Positions 4,291-57,707 of a stretch of DNA of 64,000 nt are shown in pieces (the first letter of the stretch is position 1; each line of letters begins with the position of its first letter). The notes beneath the pieces were generated by a model. That model did no database searches. It was given only the letters and a program-made list of their open reading frames with translations, and had not been told where the DNA came from. The translations under genes were made by a program, and so were the position numbers. Source of the stretch: Onchidella celtica (lineage: Eukaryota > Mollusca > Gastropoda > Systellommatophora > Onchidiidae); NCBI GenBank assembly GCA_963931925.1, contig OZ007569.1, positions 7,289,957-7,353,956 on the forward strand, written 5' to 3'.

Positions 4291-6717
4291 TTAATAATAA
4301 TAATAGTTCGTCCATCAGGTATGATGATGACCTTAACAACACCAGAGGAATAAAGAACAGAAATTGTTGAGAATTTCAACACATGGACAATAAAGAGAAC
4401 TAAAGGACACAGAGGACAGAATGGAAAGACTGTTCTTTCATGACTTATGGCTTCTCATGTGACTGATAAGTCCTATTTTTGCCCTGCAGACCCTTCCGCA
4501 TAAATGACAAGAGTGCTCCGTTGGTTCAGTACCACTGGGCCTTTCCTTGCGCCGTTCTCTTTTTTTGATAGCCTGCTGGACTCTGTCAGCTTCCCATGCT
4601 TTGCTGCCTCTGGTAAGGGCCGCCCTCCAATTTGCACGATCAAGCGAGAGCTTTTCCCACTCACTCACATCAATGGCAAAGGCCTTCAGTGATTGCTTGA
4701 GAGTGTCTTTGTAACGTCTCTTTGGGGCCCCAACATTCCTCGTTCCATTGGAGAGCTCAGAGAAGAAGATTTGCTTAGGGAGTCTGGAGTCGGGCATTCT
4801 GACAACATGTCCTGCCCAACGTAGCTGAATTTTTTTCAGGTGGCAGAAGATGCTCAATTCCTTGGCACGATTGAGGACCTCAGTGTCTGGAATTTTATCC
4901 TGCCATTTGATCCTTAGGATCTTTCTAAGGCAGGCCAGATGAAAGTGATTTAGCTTTCTGGCATGCGATTGGTACACTGTCCAGGTTTCAGCCCCATAGA
5001 GTAGGGTGGGAAGGACCACAGCATTGTACACTTTCAGCTTAGTGTCTGTGCGAATGCCGGCAACATCCCATACTCTCTTTCGAAGCCTGCCAAATGCAGA
5101 GCTGGCTTTGCTGATTCTTGAGAGAATTTCAGTATCAACACGAGCCGCGGAAGACAGTGTACTGCCAAGATAGGTGAAGTTCTCCGACACCTTCAGAAGA
5201 CTGTCATGGACTTTGATATTTGGGGTCACAGGATACTTGTCGTCTGGAGTAGGCTGATGGAGCACTTCCGTCTTCTTTGTGCTTATTGTGAGGCCAAGAT
5301 TTTCCAGAGGCCTTCACGACACACTGTGTCAAATGCTTTTGTGAGGTCAACAAATGTGATATACAGCGCTTTATTTTGTTCCATGCATTTTTCCTGAATC
5401 TGTCTGGCAGCAAAAATCATATCCGCCGTTCCCCTCTCTTTACGAAAGCCACATTGGCTCTCGGGAAGCAAGTCATTTGATGAGAGGTGATCAAGAAGGC
5501 GATTCAGAAGCATTCTTGCCAATATTTTGCCAGCAATTGAAAGTAGAGAGATTCCCCGATGGTTGTCACAGACTTGGCTGTCCCCTTTGTTTTTGTACAG
5601 ATGGATGATTGAAGCATCTTTGAAGTCCTGTGGCAGCTTCCCTGCTTTCAACATATGATTGAACAACTCGGTCAACCTTTCAATAAGCTTTTCTCCACCG
5701 AAGGCATACACCTCAGCAGGAATTGAATCCACGCCTGGTGATTTGTTAAAGGACATCTGATTTGTGGCAGTTCGGGTCTCATTTGCTGTGAATGGCTTGG
5801 CAAGAGCTGCATTAATAGGAGTCTGAGGGAGGCGGTCAATGGACTCAGTATTTATATTTGATGGCCGATTTAGCACACATCCGAAATGTTCTGCCCAACG
5901 CTGAATTATGGCATTCAATTCAACAATGCGTGTTGAACCATCTGACGCAAGAAGTGGCGTAGTGCCAGAGCGGGATGGCCCAAACACAGCTCGGAGGCTC
6001 TCAAAGAACTTTCTAGTGTTGTTTGTGTCGGCATATTTCTGAGTTTCTCTTACTCGCTCTTCTAGCCAGTCATTTTTCATTTTCCTCAGCTTCTTCTGGA
6101 GTACACCCTTACATGCACGCAGTGCATCAGCTTTTGCTGTGGAAGAGGGGTCACTGCAGTGAGCTTGGATGAGACTATTTTTTTCTTTGATGAGCACTTT
6201 GATTTCATTATCATTATCATTGAACCAGTCCTGGTGCTTGCGGACAGGAAAACCAACTGTGCTGCTGGCGCAAGAGTGTACAGTCGTATTTAGGTCAGTC
6301 CAGCTCTGTTCAATGTTCTCAGGGTCAAAAGTCACGCAATCCAATTTTGAGGAGAGTTCTGATGAGAGCTCGCTCTGTTTCTCAGCTGAGCAGAGTTTTG
6401 AAACATTTAGGCGTTTAGGTGGCGCTTTCCCTTGAAGTTCGACTGCACCCTTGCCTTTCCAGAAGAAGGTGTATCCACCACTGAGCTCTTTGAGTTGGCC
6501 ACTATCAGGGAGTCTGGTCTCACTGAGTGCCACTATGTCCAGGTTGTACCTGCTGAGCTCAATGGCAATAAGTGCAGTGCGTCTTTCCGGGTTGTTTGAG
6601 TTGTCCTGTAGTGTGCGTATATTCCAGGCTCCTAGCCTGAGTAAGCTGAATTTCTTTTTGTTTCGACCGCAAAAAGGGATCCCCACTGGTCGCGGTATAC
6701 CAGTCAGGGTGATGTGA
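4291..6717 (-). mobile_element. LINE retrotransposon with internal deletions
   Basis: Non-LTR element read on the minus strand, containing part of an endonuclease, a reverse transcriptase lacking its centre, a C-terminal zinc finger, a ~150-bp 3' UTR (4295-4437) and a short TTA/ATT-type tail (4291-4304). The 3' UTR is repeated without visible mismatch at 22625-22775, confirming this end of the element. The 5' boundary is uncertain: up to 7.5 kb may be 5' UTR. No target duplication was found. Confidence 0.85.
4438..6686 (-). pseudogene. LINE endonuclease/reverse transcriptase, two deletions
   Basis: On the minus strand 6686-5283 starts as an APE-type endonuclease (LRLGAWNIRTL; DIVALSETRL; GYTFFWKGK) and then jumps at about residue 80 to the linker before the RT (APPKRLNVSKL), so most of the endonuclease is gone in frame. 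The RT begins normally (SPGVDSIPAEVY; DNHRGISLLSIAGKI; ESQCGFRKERGTADM) through motif A (FVDLTKAFDTV), and then breaks at about 5300. There it shifts frame into LGLTISTKKTEV, losing the palm segment with the catalytic FADD box. The remainder, to 4438, has the thumb (YLGSTLSS; LYGAETW; RWAGHVVRM) and a final C2H2 finger (CHLCGRVC...H...H). Such a copy cannot copy itself. The family is common in molluscan genomes; the clade assignment (RTE- or CR1-like) is open. Confidence 0.9.
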
Positions 6718-11696: not shown

Positions 11697-11755
11697 GTTG
11701 TTACTTGTACACACGTGCACCAAGCGTTTTGCGCTAGGGGCCCGTACGTGTACGT

Positions 11756-11763
11756 ACCTATCC
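11756..11763 (+). repeat. P-element target site duplication, left
   Basis: ACCTATCC directly before the left inverted repeat; the same octamer follows the right one at 16218-16225. An 8-bp duplication is the hallmark of P-element insertion. Confidence 0.92.
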
Positions 11764-11796
11764 CAAGGAGCTTACAACAAATAGAGGGCGGACTCG
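11764..11796 (+). repeat. P-element left terminal inverted repeat
   Basis: 33 bases, 32 identical to the reverse complement of 16185-16217; the mismatch is at position 20 (A here, G on the other side). Confidence 0.92.
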
Positions 11797-11850
11797 CTCG
11801 CTCAGCGAGCCCGCGACGCGTGGGAAGTAACATGGCTGACTCGGCATCCA

Positions 11851-11862
11851 TACTGGGGGCAT
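11851..11862 (+). repeat. P-element subterminal inverted repeat, left
   Basis: TACTGGGGGCAT, perfectly inverted at 16131-16142. It corresponds in size and place to the 11-bp internal repeats of Drosophila P, which act as transposition enhancers there; function here is inferred. Confidence 0.75.
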
Positions 11863-13015
11863 GGTTTCTCGTTACCAATGACTGCCGCGCGCAGCAACCT
11901 GTATGGCTAGTTGAAATAGGTTTGGTAGAACCTGACTTTTCACTACATTTATTTCATTTATATTATTCACTGACCCCTCTCCAAGAAAAAAAAAATAAAT
12001 TACATAAAAATAAAATAGCTATACATACTCTTAAGTAGGCTAAACATTTGGTTGTTTTTTTTAAAGGTGTAGATCAGATGTAAAGTTCTAGGGGTTTTAA
12101 TTTGATCTCTACTGGATTATTTTTGTCAGTAGGCCATCATATCGCTCTGCAGTGTTTTCTGATCCTTGCTTGGTAAGATAGGCTATAGAAAGGAAGAGAA
12201 ACCTGTTACTGTTAGTAGTTACTGACCTAGGAGACTTGTCATTGTATTCTAAGTATAATGCAAGATTTAAAAGCTGATAAATACTGATTGTATGCTTATG
12301 TTATGGTTATTAATTATGACTAATGACAAGTACTGATAGATGGATTGTAACATTGTTAGTCTTAGAGTGTGTGGTTGAATAGCAAAGAAAATAGACATTA
12401 GGCACTGAATATAAAACATTTAGATCGAATTACCTTTACTCTGCCAAACGTCGCTTGCCTACACATAATCAGGTTGATGATGTCATGGTATCATTCCTAA
12501 AGCAGGTAGTGTGGTGATCACTGTCAATCCAAGCAATAGGCTATATATCAATGCTTGTCTCCATGGTAAACTCCAATAATCAAACAAAAAAATTCCTTCC
12601 TGGTATACCCCAAAACGGTCGTAACACTGCCTGTCAGAATGGAGGAGGTTGAAAATGGTAGCTGGAGCATTCCTTGTATCCCCCACCCACGTCGTGAGCT
12701 CAACAGGTTTCTGCTCCGATGGTTGATTTCTCTCTCTCCAGTGACAGGTAATATCTAGACACCTTACGTCCTCCTCCCATCCACCCAAGGAGGTGAAGCC
12801 CTGGTTAACTAGAGGAGTTGGTAAACTCAATTATCAAACAGAAATATTCCTTTATAGTATAGTAAAACGTCCAATGATCAAGCAGAAAAACGTTCATGGA
12901 AAACTCCAATAATCAAACAATAATGTTAAATTCCAGTAATCAAGCAGGAAAATGCTTTCATGGGAAACTGCAATATATATACAAATCACACACACAAAAA
13001 AAACCCAACTAAAGG

Positions 13016-16000
13016 CTATTGGTGCATGAAAAGAACTGTTTTTGTCAGTTTGTGCCTTTGTGTTCCATTGTCTTTAAAGATATACCTGTCGCTGATGAGT
13101 CTTTCATGATGATGAACAACAATGTTACAGAAAATCTTACAAGCTTCTTTAATTATTTGGGTGACATGGCTGTCTTCTGTTTCAGTATTTGTAATTGCCA
13201 TACTATGCGCCCAGATATTGGGAAAAACTTGAGTGCTAACAGCCTCGAGGACATTCCTGGTGACACTGAGGGTAAGGTGTTGGTTGACGCCTTTGATGAC
13301 TCCCTTTGCAGTTAAAATGGACCGCAAGTGTTTGTCTGCCTCCTTGATGACAACAAACATATCATTGCACATAAGTAACCCTCCTTTTGAACACCTTTGT
13401 GTGAATACTGAAGACTGACTTCCCTGGTCCTTCACAAGGAGGCTCTGTGTGCACTTGGAACATTCAGTTCTCTCAGATACTTTACGGGCAATAAAACCAC
13501 TGATATAAAACAGTACGTGGTCATGGAAAATGCTTGGCTTTGACAAAACCGTAACTAAGTGCTGCAATTCTTTTGTAGTTGTTGACGAGATTTCGTCTTC
13601 CTCTGGCCTGATCATCTGATTTGTGGGTTCTTCAATGGCCACACAATTTGCTTTTTTTGAAGGCAAAACACCATTTTTCAAAAGAAGAGCTCGCAATGCC
13701 CATTTGAATTGTGCCGGGGTTGGATTATTATTTCAGCCATTTTTCCGTCTGATTCTGCTGAAAAAAGTCTCCAGATGGTCTTGAGACAAACGATAAGTCA
13801 TAAAGTACTTGTAATTGTGGAATTTTAGGGAGTCTCTCGCTGATGCTCACAATTGAGTTGAGTGTGCAGATAAAGCCTACAAAAGCAGTTCTCCGCTTTC
13901 CATTAATAAGCAGCTTGCCTTTTGAATCTTTAAGGCCCTTAATGTAATCTATGGCCTCATCAATTTCAAGTTTCCTTGATGGTAAATTCATCTCCATCAT
14001 GGGACTTTTCATTCCTCTGTCATAAGGGGTTGAAGAATTACAAAAATCAAATAACTGGTAAAAAATGCGCAAAAATTTTGTTGTTGCCGAACTTCCTGCA
14101 AATTGGGTCAAGACTAAGTCCTCCCTCAGAAAATCAATAGCATTGGCAACTGAGGAAGAAATAGTCTGTACAGCAAACTTCACATTCATTTTATTCTTTT
14201 CATAATTTACGTGCTTCCCTCGGACCTTGTTGGCAAGAACCAAGTTGTCACTTCTTTGCAGCTTGTCAAGTTGCACGATAAAATCCCAATTAATTAAATC
14301 TCCTTCATAGAAAAGCTGTTTTAAATCACCAAGACAGTTCCTGACATTCTTAATTAAATGGCAGGCATCAAAAATAAAAAACACTGGTTCATTTGTAACA
14401 GGGTGGGTAAATGAAGATTTCAATTCTGCTGGCTTTAAAACACAGCCCAACGAAGTGGCTGTTGCTTGGTTGGTGTAACAGCCATCACACACAACAGCAT
14501 GAACAAAATACCCAGCATTGGAAAGTAAAATTAATGAATCATTGACAATTTGAGCTTGGGTTTCTCCTGTTATTTTGTCAATGAAGAAATAGCCAATTGG
14601 TTGTTTAAAGTGTTTTTTCAAACCAACAACCATAACAGTTAAAGCCTGTCCAGCAGGGGCGTCATCATCATCAGCACTCAGTTGGCCGAGATCAACTGAG
14701 CCTATATACGACTTTGACTCTGGGTCATATACAAATCCCTTTTTGAGATGCATGCAGTCAAACATAACTGCAACGTTCTTGGTTTCCTCAGTAAGACTTA
14801 TCTTTAGTGTCTCAAAAACCTCAGACATGAACCCTGGGTTGCAATGACGCGCTGCAGCCCATTGCTGAATAGATGATGGGTGAGGAAGGGATAAAAATTT
14901 CCTTACATAATCGTATGCTTGACTACTATAAAAATGTAAAGTTACTGCAAATTTCTTCAAGTCCTCTGAATATCGCATTCCATGTGGATTAGTCGAAGAG
15001 GCTTTCAGCTCGTTTTCAATCAAAGTAAACGTTTCCTCATCGAAGTTGGCATTAAGGATGTTGTGTTGCTCTTGTGATAACATTTTCATTTTTTCCATTT
15101 CATTCAAAAGTTTCGAAATTTGTTTGTCTCTTCTTTGAAGTTTCTGGTTTAGTGATTTTATATCTTTGTTCTTTCCTGCTATCTGTTCCTCTCTTTTTTT
15201 AATCTTGTTCTTTGCCTGAGCCAATTCTGTCTCAATACTCGGGCAACAATAATTGTGCTCATTAAGCTTGACAAATTTAGTTGCTAAGGAGGGATTTGAA
15301 GGAGATTCCATGTGGCGTTTTTTGGGGGATGTTCTTTTCTTTGGAGGTGGTCGCTTTGGGGTAACCTTTGGCTGCTGACTTTGTGGATGGTTTGGAAAAA
15401 TAGTTGGCACAGCGGACTCGCGCAGTTTTTTAATAGCCATATCAATTTCATAGTCAGAAACTATGAAATGGTCGCTGCATATCCGTGAGTGAATAGTGGG
15501 CTGCCATAACCGACCCGTCTTTTCATCCTGACGGTTAACATTTCTGACCCATTGCTGACAAATTTCGGGCCTGGAAAAGGGGAATCTGACGAAGGAAAAA
15601 AAAAAAAAAAAACTTAGTTTAAAGAGACTGTAGCGAAGGTTGTGTGGACCGTAAGGTGGACTAAAGACAACGTGTGGAAGCCTAGTGGAGCCCTAGATTA
15701 GATTGAGAGGACAAGAATAGATAAATCGTTATAGGTTATCTAGATCTCATGATATATTATATATTCATAAGTTGGTGCTATCAATTAGAATACAATGCAT
15801 GCAGCAAGGGCTTCAACAAGTTCTTGGTCTATAACAGAGAAGCGCTACAAAGCATGATGTGTTACCGTAACACAATACCGATGCCGGCTCGGCCCACGTG
15901 CCAGTCTCTGTCACTAACCGTGGCTACTGTTTGGGAATATTCTAAGCAAAGTACACATATAATCTCTAAATCTTGGGACTACTTAACAAATTATACCAAA

Positions 16001-16086
16001 GTAAAGAATACTTACCCATGGAAACTCCTTTGAGAGTCCTTGTTATCACGGGCTTTACAGCCAAAAACAACACACGTTTTCACCAT
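13016..16086 (-). pseudogene. THAP-domain P-element transposase, broken near its end
   Basis: Exon 1 (16086-16016) encodes MVKTCVVFGC and 23 codons plus two bases; donor GG/GTAAGT. The acceptor CAG at 15588-15586 follows a long T tract, and exon 2 (from 15585) continues in frame with FPFSRPEICQQW. Together they give a complete THAP zinc finger: C5, C10, W36, C60, H63 and AVPTIF at 82-87. A basic/coiled-coil stretch (about 15240-15070) follows, then the RNase H-like core with FDCMHL and VVCDGCYTN carrying the two likely catalytic aspartates. Around 13801-13820 the frame shifts; the displaced frame reads SQDHLETFFSRIRRKNG, with the likely catalytic glutamate, and then meets TGA (13734-13736) before NNNPTPAQFKWALR. 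The C-terminal part is open to 13016. Closest known relatives are Drosophila P transposase and THAP9. Two lesions make it inactive unless they are sequence errors. Confidence 0.9.
15586..16015 (-). other. Intron in the P-element transposase gene
   Basis: A 430-base phase-2 intron: donor GTAAGT just below 16016, acceptor AG at 15586 preceded by a tract of about 17 T. Joining the flanks restores the THAP domain in frame, which is the main evidence. Confidence 0.85.
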
Positions 16087-16130
16087 TGTACTGGTATCGA
16101 TCGTAAACAAACCGAAGCCGCTCTGGCCGA

Positions 16131-16142
16131 ATGCCCCCAGTA
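16131..16142 (-). repeat. P-element subterminal inverted repeat, right
   Basis: ATGCCCCCAGTA, the reverse complement of 11851-11862. It lies between the transposase start codon (16086) and the terminus, so in the promoter/binding region of the element. Confidence 0.75.
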
Positions 16143-16184
16143 CAATGGCGTGAGAAGGGATCAAATTTTCACGGTCACGTGACC

Positions 16185-16217
16185 CGAGTCCGCCCTCCAT
16201 TTGTTGTAAGCTCCTTG
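16185..16217 (-). repeat. P-element right terminal inverted repeat
   Basis: Ends GTTGTAAGCTCCTTG at 16217, followed by the duplicated ACCTATCC at 16218-16225. Confidence 0.92.
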
Positions 16218-16478
16218 ACCTATCCCTAACCCTGTCCTTATCCTCAACCCTAAAATCTTATCCAATCCCTAATCCTGTTCCTTACCCTTTCGACCAAAAA
16301 AACCCAGGAGGAAAACAAAAAGAAAATCTGAAAGAATAATTAATTAAGGCTGTTGTTAGGAGTATTCTGGGGGGGGGGGGGTTGGGGGAGAACTCTGTAG
16401 CTCTGGAGTCACAAAAGGCTTTAAAATACATACCCTTAGCGAAAAAAAAAAGTGGGGGACCTACATACTTGTAACAAC

Positions 16479-27414: not shown

Positions 27415-27750
27415 TTATTTTTACTTCAAAAAATTTCTGCCATTCACTAGAGTAGTTTGCCTGTAAACAAAGGGCTGTGTGTCACCTTTGCTCAATGGGA
27501 CACGTTCATGACATTTTCATTTTTTTCTTTTTGAAAAGTGCACAAAGAATAAACAAAAACATCGATCTCCCTGGCTGTGCATGTTGTGACGTGGCATTTA
27601 CTGTCACCAAACATCTTGTTGACAGGTAGAGAAAATTTATGGGCGTGGCATCCAGCACAATATTAGTATATTTTATAATAATATATTTTTTGTATTGGCG
27701 TTTCTATGCCCTGCTTATGCTTTTGGGATTGGGGCCCTTAATCAAAAGGT
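27415..27750. other. Unassigned non-coding DNA
   Basis: No gene or repeat recognised before the CATC/CTCA array begins. Confidence 0.45.
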
Positions 27751-28115
27751 CACCCATCCTTCCATCCATCTGTTCACTATTTGCTCCGCCCATCAATACA
27801 CTGTCCATTCAATCAACCATCCATCCATCTACACATCCATCCATCCATCCATCCATCCACTCACTCACTCACTCACTACTCACTCACTCACTCACTCACT
27901 CACTCACTCACTCACTCACTCAATCCACTCACTCACTCATTCACTCACACACTCGTCATCCATCCATCCATCCATCCACTCACTCACTCACTCACTCACT
28001 CACTCACTCACTCACTCACTCACTCACTCACTCACTCACTCACTCAATCACTCATTCACTCACTCACTCATTCACTCACTCACTCGTCATTCATCCATCC
28101 ATCCGTTCACCCACC
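27751..28115 (+). repeat. CATC / CTCA tetranucleotide array
   Basis: Alternating blocks of (CATC)n (27818-27857, 27958-27976, 28093-28105) and (CTCA)n (27858-27957, 27977-28085). Since four bases are not a multiple of three, all three frames stay open and give HSLTHSLTH- or HPSIHPSI-like peptides; these are artefacts. Confidence 0.9.
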
Positions 28116-29969
28116 GACTGACATAGACAGCTTGACCCCATCCCTGGTCGATTTCACTCACAAGAGAAATGTTTTCTGAAACAAGCCCGTGATATTCCTT
28201 AGGTTAGCTTGACACGAGACAGATCAGAGAAACCGAGTCACAAATTCTGTAGCTCCGCATCTCAATAATGCATGATGGAGGAGAAAGATGATTGTTCAAT
28301 CTCTAAAGTCCCTTCTTTTTAACGAAATTTATTGTTTTCCAAGAATCACATCGGCCCCGATTCCTGATTCCTAGTAACTGCTTCACCAACACATTAAACC
28401 TTTGTCAGTTTGAAATATAATGCACGTAACATTTTTGAAAGTGGGAATCCTCTATTTTCCATTACATTGCACCGAAAAAGCAAGCGTTTTGAATTATATG
28501 GAAATAATTCAATGTATAATAAAATGTCTGTGAGAAGCTCGATTTGTCCTGTAGCAGTGAAAGGTGAAATATGGAAATTGAAGGGGTTGGAGTAGTAGGG
28601 AGTCTGAGTGCCAATTTAACCCCCCCCCCCCAAACACACACACACATCACTCCCCAGTGTAATACAAGCGTTTCTACATTTCGTTATTCATATCACTGTT
28701 TCTTGGAACGAAAAGAGAACTGAAATCAAGAGGTAATACTGTAGTCGAAGACGAAGCCTGTTTACACCAAATATTATTTTGATCAGTCTAGATATAATAT
28801 ACAAACTAGGCGTTACACACAAGAGCCTTACTTAACTCTACGAATCTTTGACGGGTTTGTTACAGTTGGCGTCACAGAACTTGTGCTCGATCCTACGGAA
28901 TTTTGACTTTTATTTCGTCTTATGCCGAAATTCCCAAGGCCCTGCCAGAGAGTATAGATGTATAGAGAGATCTCACCTCCGCCAAATTGCGAAACTAGGT
29001 CGCTGCGGTAAACACGAAACTGAAGAATTGAAAGAGACCTTCTTCACCGAAGATAGTGTACATATCTGTTCACTGTGGTTTGTTCATATTTTTGGGCTCA
29101 CTGAAACTATTTACAACCGTTTGTATCCTCTTACGAACCGTGGAAATGCACAAACGGATATTGTTTACCGTAGCGATCTACTTTCCGCTCCATGCTAACA
29201 ATGGTTTCGCAGAGCCTCCCGTGTCTCGCAGTGCAATTTGACCAATAGTGAACCCTCTCTCTCTATTTATACATATACTCTTTGGCTCTGCTAAGAGTTT
29301 CAATTCATCTTTTGGATTACAGCCAATTTTTGCGATTGCACACGCTCAACGCCTGGCCAAAAAAAACAAATCTTTGCAAAAAATGGACTTGCTCAGCCGC
29401 CGTGCACTGGAATGGGGGTGGGGGTGGATGCTCTGCGGTCAACATCACAATTCCGGGTGACATAGGTGAAATAAAGCAATTAGGCCGAACCTGACATGAT
29501 TCTGAAACAATTGGCTCTGACTGAGATCTCTGAAAAGAACGAGAATTCACCTAGGACTCGCTGGCTAACAAGGTTAATTGATCACTGGAACTGTCCAGTG
29601 TACAAAGTGTTAATATGGACAAGTGAAACACTCTCTGAGGGCTCACGCTGCAGTCGGAACCAGTCTGGAGTTTTTAGAATTATAATTGTCACCTGTTTTG
29701 TGTAGCTGAATTTTTTTGCTCTCATTTCTTTTGTTCAGTAAATACCCCCGGTCAATCTGAACGTCCTCGTAATGACATGCAATTGGGTGGGGCATTTGTA
29801 GTGGATGTGTGCCATTCTTCTGAATTCCCTTATATCCTTTGACAAGCCCAGCGCACAGGAGACTGCACATGTATTTGGCATGCATTCAATTTGGCGCAAT
29901 TTCCTCGCCAAGAAGTGAGTGCATGATGCCCTGCTGTGCATTGTACAAGGTTTGAAGCAAGCAAATTAT

Positions 29970-31917: not shown

Positions 31918-32218
31918 GTTGTTATAAAAGCACGTACGCACTCCAAGCGTTTTACATTAGTAGCGCGTACGCATACATACCTATCCCAAACCCGGTCCCT
32001 ATCCTTAACCCTAAATCTTATCGAATCCCTAACCCAGCCCCCTTACCCTTTCAACCAAAAAACAGGAGGAAAAGAAAAAGAAAATCTAAAAGAATAATTA
32101 ATTAAGGTTGTTGTTAGGAGTATTTCGGGAGGAGCTCTCAAGCTCTGGAGTCAGAAAAGGCTTCAAAATACGTACCCCTAGCGCAAAATAGTTGGGGGAC
32201 GTACGCACTTGTAACAAC
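31918..32218. mobile_element. MITE family M, copy 2
   Basis: About 301 bp, termini GTTGTTAT and GTAACAAC, with the shared interior (AATAATTAATTAAGGTTGTT) and the right-end AATACGTACCCCTAGCGCAA. It shows the uninterrupted form at the place where the P-element sits in copy 1 (TACCTATCCCAAACCC), so it serves as an empty-site comparison. Confidence 0.85.
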
Positions 32219-32836
32219 ATTCTTGTTCTATAAGGATTACAGCATAATCTTTGCAAATGTGCATGGTCAGCGGCCGTGCTCTGAGGATGTCTGTCTGTCT
32301 GTCTGCCAGTACATCCGTCCATTTGACTGTCTGGCTTTGTCTGCCCGTCCGTCCATATGTCTGTCTAGTTGTCCGTCTGTCTGTTTCTCATCTGTTCGTC
32401 CCTCCTGCCATGTGTCTGTCTGTCTGTCTGTCTGTCTATTTATATAACCGATATCTTTATCCGTTGATAAAACAATCCTAGAAAAATGACCAAGCTAACT
32501 GAGAGTTTGCCAGTAATGTCAGGTGAGAACCCATTGGTCCACAGTAACATGAAACACTAGTAGACATCTGTTGCCCCCGGAGATCGCATGTATTTCGATA
32601 CAGTTAACTGGCACCCTGTTAGTGTTAGATACCTGAGGGATCGCAAAACTACACGAGCATAATCTGCATCGTCCATGACCGGGTTCGTACGTGTTTTCCC
32701 CTGAAATGATGACCAATATGTAATGGTACAGAATAGATGACTGGTGATGGTAAATGGCAGATTGGGATGAGTTGGCGTGATCGACGTGGAGTGAAGAAAG
32801 AAGATGGAGAAAGGACTATGACATGCAGATATAGGA
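32219..32836. repeat. (TCTG)n-rich region and flanking DNA
   Basis: Degenerate TCTG/TCCG repeats at about 32288-32440 produce cysteine- and valine-rich false frames. The rest is unassigned. Confidence 0.6.
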
Positions 32837-33398
<562 letters not shown>

Positions 33399-34076
33399 CT
33401 TTTCATTTAACATAACATAACATGAACAGCATTGTTTACCATATGCCACATACGCCATTACTGAACACTGAAACAGTAATAATCGAAATCTTTGTATAAT
33501 AATTATTAGATATTATAATTTCTTGGTCACATCTAATTATTTCTCTGTTTTACATTTTAATACTCTGGGCTACTTCAGATCTATTGGCAGTTTCCTAGTG
33601 GTAGCAGAAGACGTTTATGATCTGTTCCTTCTCTAGTGGACTGGCTATCAGAAGATTCAGACTATACATTCTGTAGGGGCAGACAGTTTTCGAAAACTGA
33701 TATGTCAAATCGATCTCTCGACACGAGACAGGAAAGAGAAAGAAGAAAAAAAAATAGTGTAGCCCTAAATTGCCCGCCCCTCCCCCCCCCCCCCCGCCGC
33801 CTCCCACGAGCCCATGTCCAAACTCAATTGCCTGTCCTTCCTTACCCAGGGGCAGAACCAGGTTATGAAGCTGGGGGGGGGGGGCGTATGAAAAGATGGG
33901 CAAGCACATAAAAAAGCGCCAGGGCACATACCAAAAACATGTAGTTTTATATATTTTTTAGATTTATTCGCTCTACATTTTTATTTTGCACTTTAAATAA
34001 TACACGAGGAAGATACCGATTTTTAAAGGAAGTACATCATTGTTATATTGTATTAAGAAATCGAAACATCGTATCA
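33399..34076. other. Unassigned DNA with C and G runs
   Basis: C12-type run at 33782-33795 and G12 at 33872-33883. No gene recognised. Confidence 0.45.
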
Positions 34077-56300: not shown

Positions 56301-57314
56301 TGTATGGCTTTGTTCGCGCGCCTGACAACATTCCTTTTGGAATAGTTCAGAGAAATTATTTCTCATTTGCAGAACATGATAAATACTTACAGGGTATACC
56401 CGCGACTTCACGTGCTCGGGACAAAAACTGGATTTCTGCTCACCGCTAATCTCTTGGACTTGTTTTGATCGGCATTGTTTCCCGCTCTCCCCACTTCCCT
56501 CCTTTTCTATCCGCCCTGCCCCCATCTAACTAATTATCAAGCAGAGCGCATGTCAAATACAGTCTCCCATACACTGGACTTCTCGAAGGGGAGCCAAAAA
56601 AAGTTCATTGTATTTTACCGTCGTAACAAAATTTTTAACAGATTGTCTGAAACTTCAATGAACGCAATAATTCCATACAAAAATCGATTGGGTTCGATTA
56701 TTTGACATCTAGAGCTGGGTTCTCATGTGTGCGGAAAGGGAAACGGCAAAAAATCCCTCATAATGTAAAAGGAAAGAGTGTGTACGGAAACGGCGTGCGG
56801 AAACATTTTTTCTATTTCATTACTTGAAGGCTCTATGACAATGCCGTTGCCCGTTTCAGTATATATGAGAACCCAGCTTAAGAAAACTCATTCTTTTTGA
56901 AATTGTTATTCAGGCTGCAGCGTTGAGAAAAATAAAAAAGGCCAAATTCAACCACAATGAAATACTCCCGTCACTAATTTTTAAAAAATATAATATATAA
57001 TAATGATTAGGATAGTTTCTCCCCAGAACGTCCAAAACTTCAGCTGGACCTTGTGAGTGACTGTCGTATAAATTATCAATGTAGTGTTTAAATGACATTT
57101 AGCCCAAAGAAGACACAATACAATTCTCTTCCATTAACTGCACGATGTGGAAGCATAAATAGCTTACATATGTTGACAGTCTGTATAACACTTGTACAAA
57201 CAAAACTCTACATGTTAACACTTCAAATTCCTTTCAGAATGTAAACATTTACGAATTACACGTGATGCCGAAGAACGGAAAAAAAAAAGGCAATGCACAT
57301 TTCTGAAAGAATAT
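56301..57314. other. Unassigned non-coding DNA
   Basis: No gene or repeat recognised; TTGTTATTCAGGCTGCAG.GTTGA at about 56903 also occurs near 10285 (TTATTCAGGCTGCAGGGTTG), pointing to another dispersed repeat. Confidence 0.4.
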
Positions 57315-57707
57315 TGTTACAAGTACGTAACTGTGTTCCCCCAAGTTTTTTGCCCCACGGGTACGTATTTTAATGTCTTTTGTGACTTCAGAGCTAGAGA
57401 GCTCTCCCCGAGAGACTCCTAACAACAGCCTTAATTAATTATTCTTTCAGATTTTCTTTTTGTTTTCCGCCTGTTTTTTGATTGAAAGGGTAAGGGGGCA
57501 AAGTTGGGGATTCGATAAGATTTAGTATCGAAGATAAGAATTTTCTTTTTGTTTTCCTCTTGTTTTTAGATTGAAAGGGTAAGGGGGCAAAGTTAGGGAT
57601 TCGATAAGATTTAGTATCGAAGATAGAGACGGGGTTAGGGATAAGTATATATGTACGTAAGCGCCCCTAGCGCTAAACGCTTGAGGACCGTACGTACAGG
57701 TAACAAC
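57315..57707 (-). mobile_element. MITE family M, copy 3 with internal duplication
   Basis: Inverse to copies 1 and 2. Termini TTGTTAC and GTAACAAC. Longer than the others because an 85-90-base segment (57452-57540, then 57541-57626: TTTTCTTTTTGTTTTCC...GGGATTCGATAAGATTTAG) is tandemly doubled. Confidence 0.85.

Follow-up and report, generated by a model that had tools for sequence, protein, structure and literature searches.

A full-length, gene-dead P-superfamily transposon in a high-copy MITE-like repeat of Onchidella celtica

The window (the whole stretch of 64,000 nucleotides analysed here) contains, at 11697-16478, what a preliminary description took to be a P element nested inside a MITE. 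Is this a genuine transposition, and could such a copy still move? We conclude, with a probability of about 96%, that the element is most probably a full-length, gene-dead copy of a young P-superfamily transposon, brought by cut-and-paste insertion into an older, high-copy MITE-like repeat. The interval 11697-16478 comprises both host repeat and P element; the P-superfamily transposon alone occupies 11764-16217 (4,454 bp), with its gene on the minus strand. Outside the gene, it is organized as follows.

11756-11763, no strand: target-site duplication ACCTATCC, left copy
11764-11796, plus strand: left terminal inverted repeat, 33 bp, gene 3' side
11851-11862, plus strand: subterminal inverted repeat TACTGGGGGCAT, 12 bp, 87 bp inside the left end
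12562-12987, plus strand: imperfect direct repeats, four copies of a unit of about 29 nt, in the 3' non-coding part
16131-16142, minus strand: subterminal inverted repeat TACTGGGGGCAT inverted, 12 bp, 75 bp inside the right end
16173-16184, no strand: palindrome GGTCACGTGACC, adjoining the right terminal repeat on its inner side
16185-16217, minus strand: right terminal inverted repeat, 33 bp, gene 5' side
16218-16225, no strand: target-site duplication ACCTATCC, right copy

The hallmarks that had been claimed for this element were recovered as described. Its 33-bp inverted termini (CAAGGAG.../...CTCCTTG, ends CA...TG) agree at 32/33 positions, the target duplication ACCTATCC is identical at both ends (8/8), and the 12-bp subterminal inverted repeats are present. 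The one mismatch, at position 20 of the left end, is private to the window copy, G being present in the other 30 of the 31 termini found in the genome. When the two 200-bp subterminal regions were shuffled by mononucleotide, any shared 12-mer arose in 3 of 2000 trials. The palindrome GGTCACGTGACC is also present in a second family, represented by locus L050 (62% identical).

We next consider the gene, which reads on the minus strand.

16016-16086, minus strand: predicted exon 1, start of the THAP domain (MVKTCVVFGC...)
15586-16015, minus strand: predicted intron, GTAAGT...CGTCAG, 430 bp, giving a frame-open splice
15441-15585, minus strand: predicted start of exon 2, remainder of the THAP domain, by the same predicted splice
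13728-15440, minus strand: 570-aa open frame with P-type HTH, N-terminal part of RNase H and GTP-binding insertion domain
13828, minus strand: one extra base, absent from the other three full-length copies, a frameshift
13733-13735, minus strand: premature stop in the family frame, at a codon for tryptophan in L033, L038 and L044
13016-13732, minus strand: C-terminal transposase frame, split from the main frame by the lesions

All three Pfam domains of the window frame score above cut-off (P-element HTH, E 1.5e-21; RNase H N-terminal part, 3.7e-38; GTP-binding domain, 5e-39), and the predicted spliced piece, exon 1 joined to 15585, matches THAP at E 4e-19. In phmmer comparisons with the Drosophila P transposase structure 6p5a, the 570-aa window frame gives E 2.8e-16 and the longer frame of a sister copy, L038, gives 9.6e-27. 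The D, D and E of L038 align with fly D230, D303 and E531, the catalytic residues named in the excerpted text of PMC7776569. The frameshift of the window copy lies upstream of the codon that aligns with E531 in L038, and the E codon is beyond it; alignment places the catalytic D, D, E at the level of the family, not within the window frame alone. Taken by itself, the window's C-terminal piece (13016-13732) has no Pfam match; the RNase H C-terminal model PF21789 does not match it, whereas it does match a relative, L049. The window family thus has the features of the P superfamily, namely an 8-bp duplication, CA...TG terminal repeats, subterminal repeats, the expected domains and the catalytic D, D, E, and the identification as a P element is borne out by the agreement of domains, catalytic residues, ends and duplication.

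These data suggest that the family formerly possessed a gene, with one intron, for a THAP-HTH-RNase H/GTP-binding transposase, although splicing of exon 1 to exon 2 is a prediction from the open frame. Such an enzyme would have bound the termini, cut the element out and integrated it into its target with an 8-bp stagger. Because of the one-base insertion and the premature stop, the window copy as assembled cannot yield a complete transposase; its single-base lesions might conceivably have arisen during assembly. Another open frame, of 115 aa at 12486-12830, is open in all four full-length copies and has no Pfam match; we have left it as non-coding.

The element is flanked by the two parts of another repeat.

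11697-11755, no strand: host MITE-like repeat, left part, which elsewhere aligns with the right part as one unit
16226-16478, no strand: host MITE-like repeat, right part, which elsewhere aligns with the left part as one unit

Joined through a single octamer, these flanks align without a break to window 31943-32224 (80% identity) and in two pieces to 57300-57707 (77-78%), a copy that has an internal duplication. The joined repeat, with its homopolymers shortened, was also used to search the genome. Among the 40 of 3234 first-look candidates that were scored, the insertion point was spanned in 39/39 listed long matches, at 83-89% identity, once a 50-bp partial match and the right half of the window copy itself had been set aside. 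Because uninterrupted forms span the insertion point elsewhere, the alignments indicate that the P element did insert into a pre-existing high-copy repeat, an event that would have duplicated 8 bp of the target. The earlier proposal that the flanks rejoin to a MITE known from two other places in the window was therefore right about the uninterrupted repeat, which is present at both, and partly right about the label. The host repeat is short (about 320 bp), non-coding and of high copy number (at least 39 long matches other than the window copy itself). In this copy it has candidate inverted ends, GTTGTTAC, that are perfect over 8 bp and have 2 mismatches over 13 bp. No target duplication of its own was recognized in the three window copies, which share a few bases beyond the right end. 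MITE is a reasonable, partly tested name for it.

How common are such copies? We searched the 1.14-Gb assembly for the terminus, allowing up to 3 mismatches, with the same pattern reversed as a control. As the preliminary description had advised, 8-bp duplications were also counted. The terminus gave 31 matches and the control none; the matches resolve into 13 pairs and 5 single ends. The duplication is 8/8 in 11 of the 13 two-ended copies, 7/8 in one (L041) and 2/8 in one (L047). A lack of other copies with the same ends, which had been raised as a possible objection, is answered by 12 other two-ended copies. Both subterminal 12-bp repeats are kept at the same spacing in 10/13; L047 is shortened, and the exact right motif is absent from L035 and L045. 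On this evidence, past movement of the family is attested by the copies and their duplications only; the ends of the window copy may still be functional.

Four copies are full length: the window copy, L033, L038 and L044, the last with two additional inserts. Substitutions between these copies amount to 0.70-1.26%, and the insertion appears to be fairly recent and the family young. With its uninterrupted host repeat known and its sister copies about 1% apart, the window copy is useful as a dated insertion. The transposase frame is broken in 4/4 full-length copies, by different lesions, and the intact transposase that the preliminary description had suggested looking for was not seen among these four copies. 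Two more coding copies in the six-frame search table, C2 and C17, at about 90% identity, have stops or a split frame.

The same counts bear on whether transposition is the right reading at all. All of the evidence comes from a single assembly, and the apparent insertion might be an assembly join or a mosaic of two repeats; however, an 8/8 duplication sits at the exact ends, and the same anatomy is repeated elsewhere, at ten sites whose 8/8 duplications differ in sequence, making such an artefact extremely improbable. We give equally little credence to the idea that the window gene is not part of a mobile element but a THAP9-like gene domesticated by the host. Vertebrate THAP9 genes do have the same domains (PMC7776569, in part), but the window copy has complete ends and an 8/8 duplication, its host repeat is uninterrupted elsewhere, its reading frame is broken and 12 other two-ended copies occupy other sites. 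For this copy, domestication is refuted by the lesions, the ends and the dispersed sister copies.

A further question is how copies without a gene have spread. Eight copies share an identical internal deletion of about 1.6 kb, leaving 2.8-kb derivatives; seven are two-ended, each with its own 8/8 duplication, and the eighth, L043, has its left end clipped. Their pairwise divergence is 0.72-1.21%. Because one deletion is found at eight sites, these gene-less copies must have been moved by a transposase supplied in trans. Mobilization in trans, which had been suggested for the window copy, is thus supported by the history of its sister copies. In 8/8 derivatives the reading frame continues across the deletion from exon 1 into the GTP-binding region (MVKTC...SQRS-LFTHPVTNEP), raising the idea that they encode a repressor like that of the Drosophila KP element, with the first 20 codons fused to the GTP-binding region. 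The in-frame junction favors this, but the frame ends after only 36-40 residues in 8/8 copies, and a passive derivative mobilized in trans accounts for the copies with no need for a protein. As the copies stand, the early stops (8/8) make a KP-like repressor very unlikely, and we retain passive mobilization as the explanation.

The window family is not the only P family in this genome. A six-frame search with the 570-aa frame, in which 76 of 1403 candidates were scored and some copies count twice, returned at least 79 P-transposase matches, with identities from 100% down to about 34%; several relatives carry long uninterrupted transposase frames. Fourteen loci outside the window family (L049, L050 and L053-L064) were examined for both ends, L051 and L052 being used only to extend L050 and L049. 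Both ends, together with 8/8 duplications, were recovered at six of the 14, which represent five additional families.

L050: 5,027 bp, both ends, 8/8
L049: 5,167 bp, both ends, 8/8
L053: 4,375 bp, both ends, 8/8
L064: 4,338 bp, both ends, 8/8, same end type as L053 (one family)
L056: 5,120 bp, both ends, 8/8
L058: 5,636 bp, both ends, 8/8

Because this search was conditioned on CA ends and a perfect or near-perfect 8-bp duplication, it gives no independent evidence for the length of the duplication. Both ends were not found at the other 8/14 loci; L054 and L057 have the gene-5' end only, and the candidate at L055 looked spurious. For the L049 family, a genome search with the gene-5' terminus gave 452 matches (228 + 224; control 0). 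The preliminary description had held that copies with intact ends are comparatively few; with 13 two-ended copies in the window family and 452 matches to one terminus of another, that does not apply here. This genome has no shortage of intact P ends, and the window copy is accompanied by many others.

Comparison with published systems, drawn in each case from excerpts of the papers cited, indicates that the window copy is an ordinary member of a well-described superfamily, with close precedents in zebrafish (PMC10983969) and Anopheles (PMC1562414). Like the window family, the P element of Drosophila melanogaster has 8-bp duplications, terminal repeats (31 bp, against 33 bp in the window family), subterminal inverted repeats, a THAP/HTH/RNase H/GTP-binding transposase and internally deleted, non-autonomous copies (PMC7776569). 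It differs in the sequence of its ends, in overall length (2.9 kb versus 4.45 kb), in introns (three versus one predicted) and in its subterminal sites, which are 10 bp long and lie 9/21 bp inside the terminal repeats, as against 12 bp and 75/87 bp inside the ends. Zebrafish Pdre2/zfTHAP9 shares CA-starting terminal repeats, 12-bp subterminal inverted repeats, 8-bp duplications and internally deleted copies, whereas its terminal repeat is 13 bp rather than 33 bp and its subterminal sequences differ (PMC10983969). Anopheles gambiae likewise harbors several P subfamilies (nine, seven of them with full-length copies) and non-autonomous derivatives in one genome, including ten MITE families derived from P elements (PMC1562414); by contrast, a single 2.8-kb deletion derivative represents the non-autonomous form observed in Onchidella, where the MITE-like repeat serves only as the target of insertion. 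The COX1 frame of the mitochondrial contig (L048) is open under genetic codes 4, 5, 9, 13 and 14, and with the invertebrate mitochondrial code 5 it yields the expected conserved residues; these features by themselves suggested a mollusc, probably a bivalve, and Onchidella celtica is a gastropod mollusc. On P elements of bivalves, in the excerpted part of PMC10294476, a P profile is among the 17 used and 16 superfamilies were found, with no name given for the seventeenth; P is not in the curated consensus counts given there.

The window copy also offers an entry to a genome with several deeply split, coexisting P families that have complete ends, in which two questions become testable. One is how THAP domains locate their ends when the fly motif is missing: no zfTHAP motif was found in Pdre2, and how the THAP domain engages Pdre2 was left open in that work (PMC10983969, in part). 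The other is whether P transposition generally requires the two ends to be spaced unequally. In Drosophila P, one transposase site is 9 bp and the other 21 bp inward of the terminal repeats; the two distances differ by 12 bp, the shorter being found at the gene 5' end, and this spacing has been likened to 12/23 signals (PMC7776569, in part).

In Onchidella, the subterminal repeat was never equidistant from both ends in the families measured. We express this as an offset, subtracting the distance at the right end (gene 5' side) from that at the left end (gene 3' side).

Window family: +12 (10/13 copies)
L047, a decayed copy of the window family: +6
L050: +11
L053 and L064 (one family): +23
L056: -10, motif differs
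L058: -9, motif differs
L049: +10, weak, sharing only the 4-base core GGGC

In size, the offset ranges from 9 to 12 bp across four families and reaches 23 bp in a fifth. These values are near one or two helical turns, in few and partly related families whose motifs were found after the fact. A fixed 12-bp rule is excluded by the offsets of 11, 23, -10 and -9, and of 6 in the decayed copy. The subterminal repeat may have a binding role, and its motif ACTGGGGGCA is a putative transposase (THAP) binding site; we take it to resemble known THAP sites. It is conceivable, though we consider it doubtful, that the P transposases of Onchidella, as in Drosophila, need two unequal ends, with the recognition site farther from one end by roughly one helical turn, or roughly two in one family. 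This would amount to a general 12/23-like rule of P elements, under which one deep clade has its long end at the gene-3' side and the other at the gene-5' side. In a tree of ten transposase frames, L056-L058 stand apart from the rest with full support, and the window family groups with L050 and then with L053/L054.

The P family represented by the loci L049 and L052, which is distinct from that of the window, is strongly amplified. The gene-5' terminus of this family gave 452 matches, and several copies of the family and its relatives contain uninterrupted frames of more than 850 codons. The element itself was placed as follows.

C12:40738070-40743236, P element of the L049/L052 family

At the right, gene-5' end of the window P element, the palindrome GGTCACGTGACC (window 16173-16184) adjoins the terminal repeat on its inner side. 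It is also kept at the right end of L050, a related P family that is only about 62% identical in protein; at the corresponding position on the left, the window family carries a different near-palindrome. The 3' non-coding part of the window element holds a further frame, which is open in all four full-length copies of the family and for which a Pfam search returned no match.

Window 12486-12830, minus strand, 115-aa frame

One of these full-length copies, L044, is itself interrupted by two inserts.

C12:29867324-29876221, two inserts (1220 bp and 1235 bp) within the P element of L044

Both start near TGTCA, terminate in GTGACA and have apparent flanking repeats of 4-5 bp. By these ends and flanking repeats they resemble solitary LTRs, and blastn between the two detected no mutual similarity.

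Elsewhere in the window, two long frames are open.

Window 4438-6686, pair of long open reading frames on the minus strand

Their residues look like those of a putative LINE-type reverse transcriptase together with its C-terminal part. The long open frames at 27639-28179 and 32557-33458 are composed of simple-sequence repeats. Finally, in the copy of the MITE-like host repeat at 57300-57707, a stretch of about 90 bp is duplicated internally when compared with the other two window copies.
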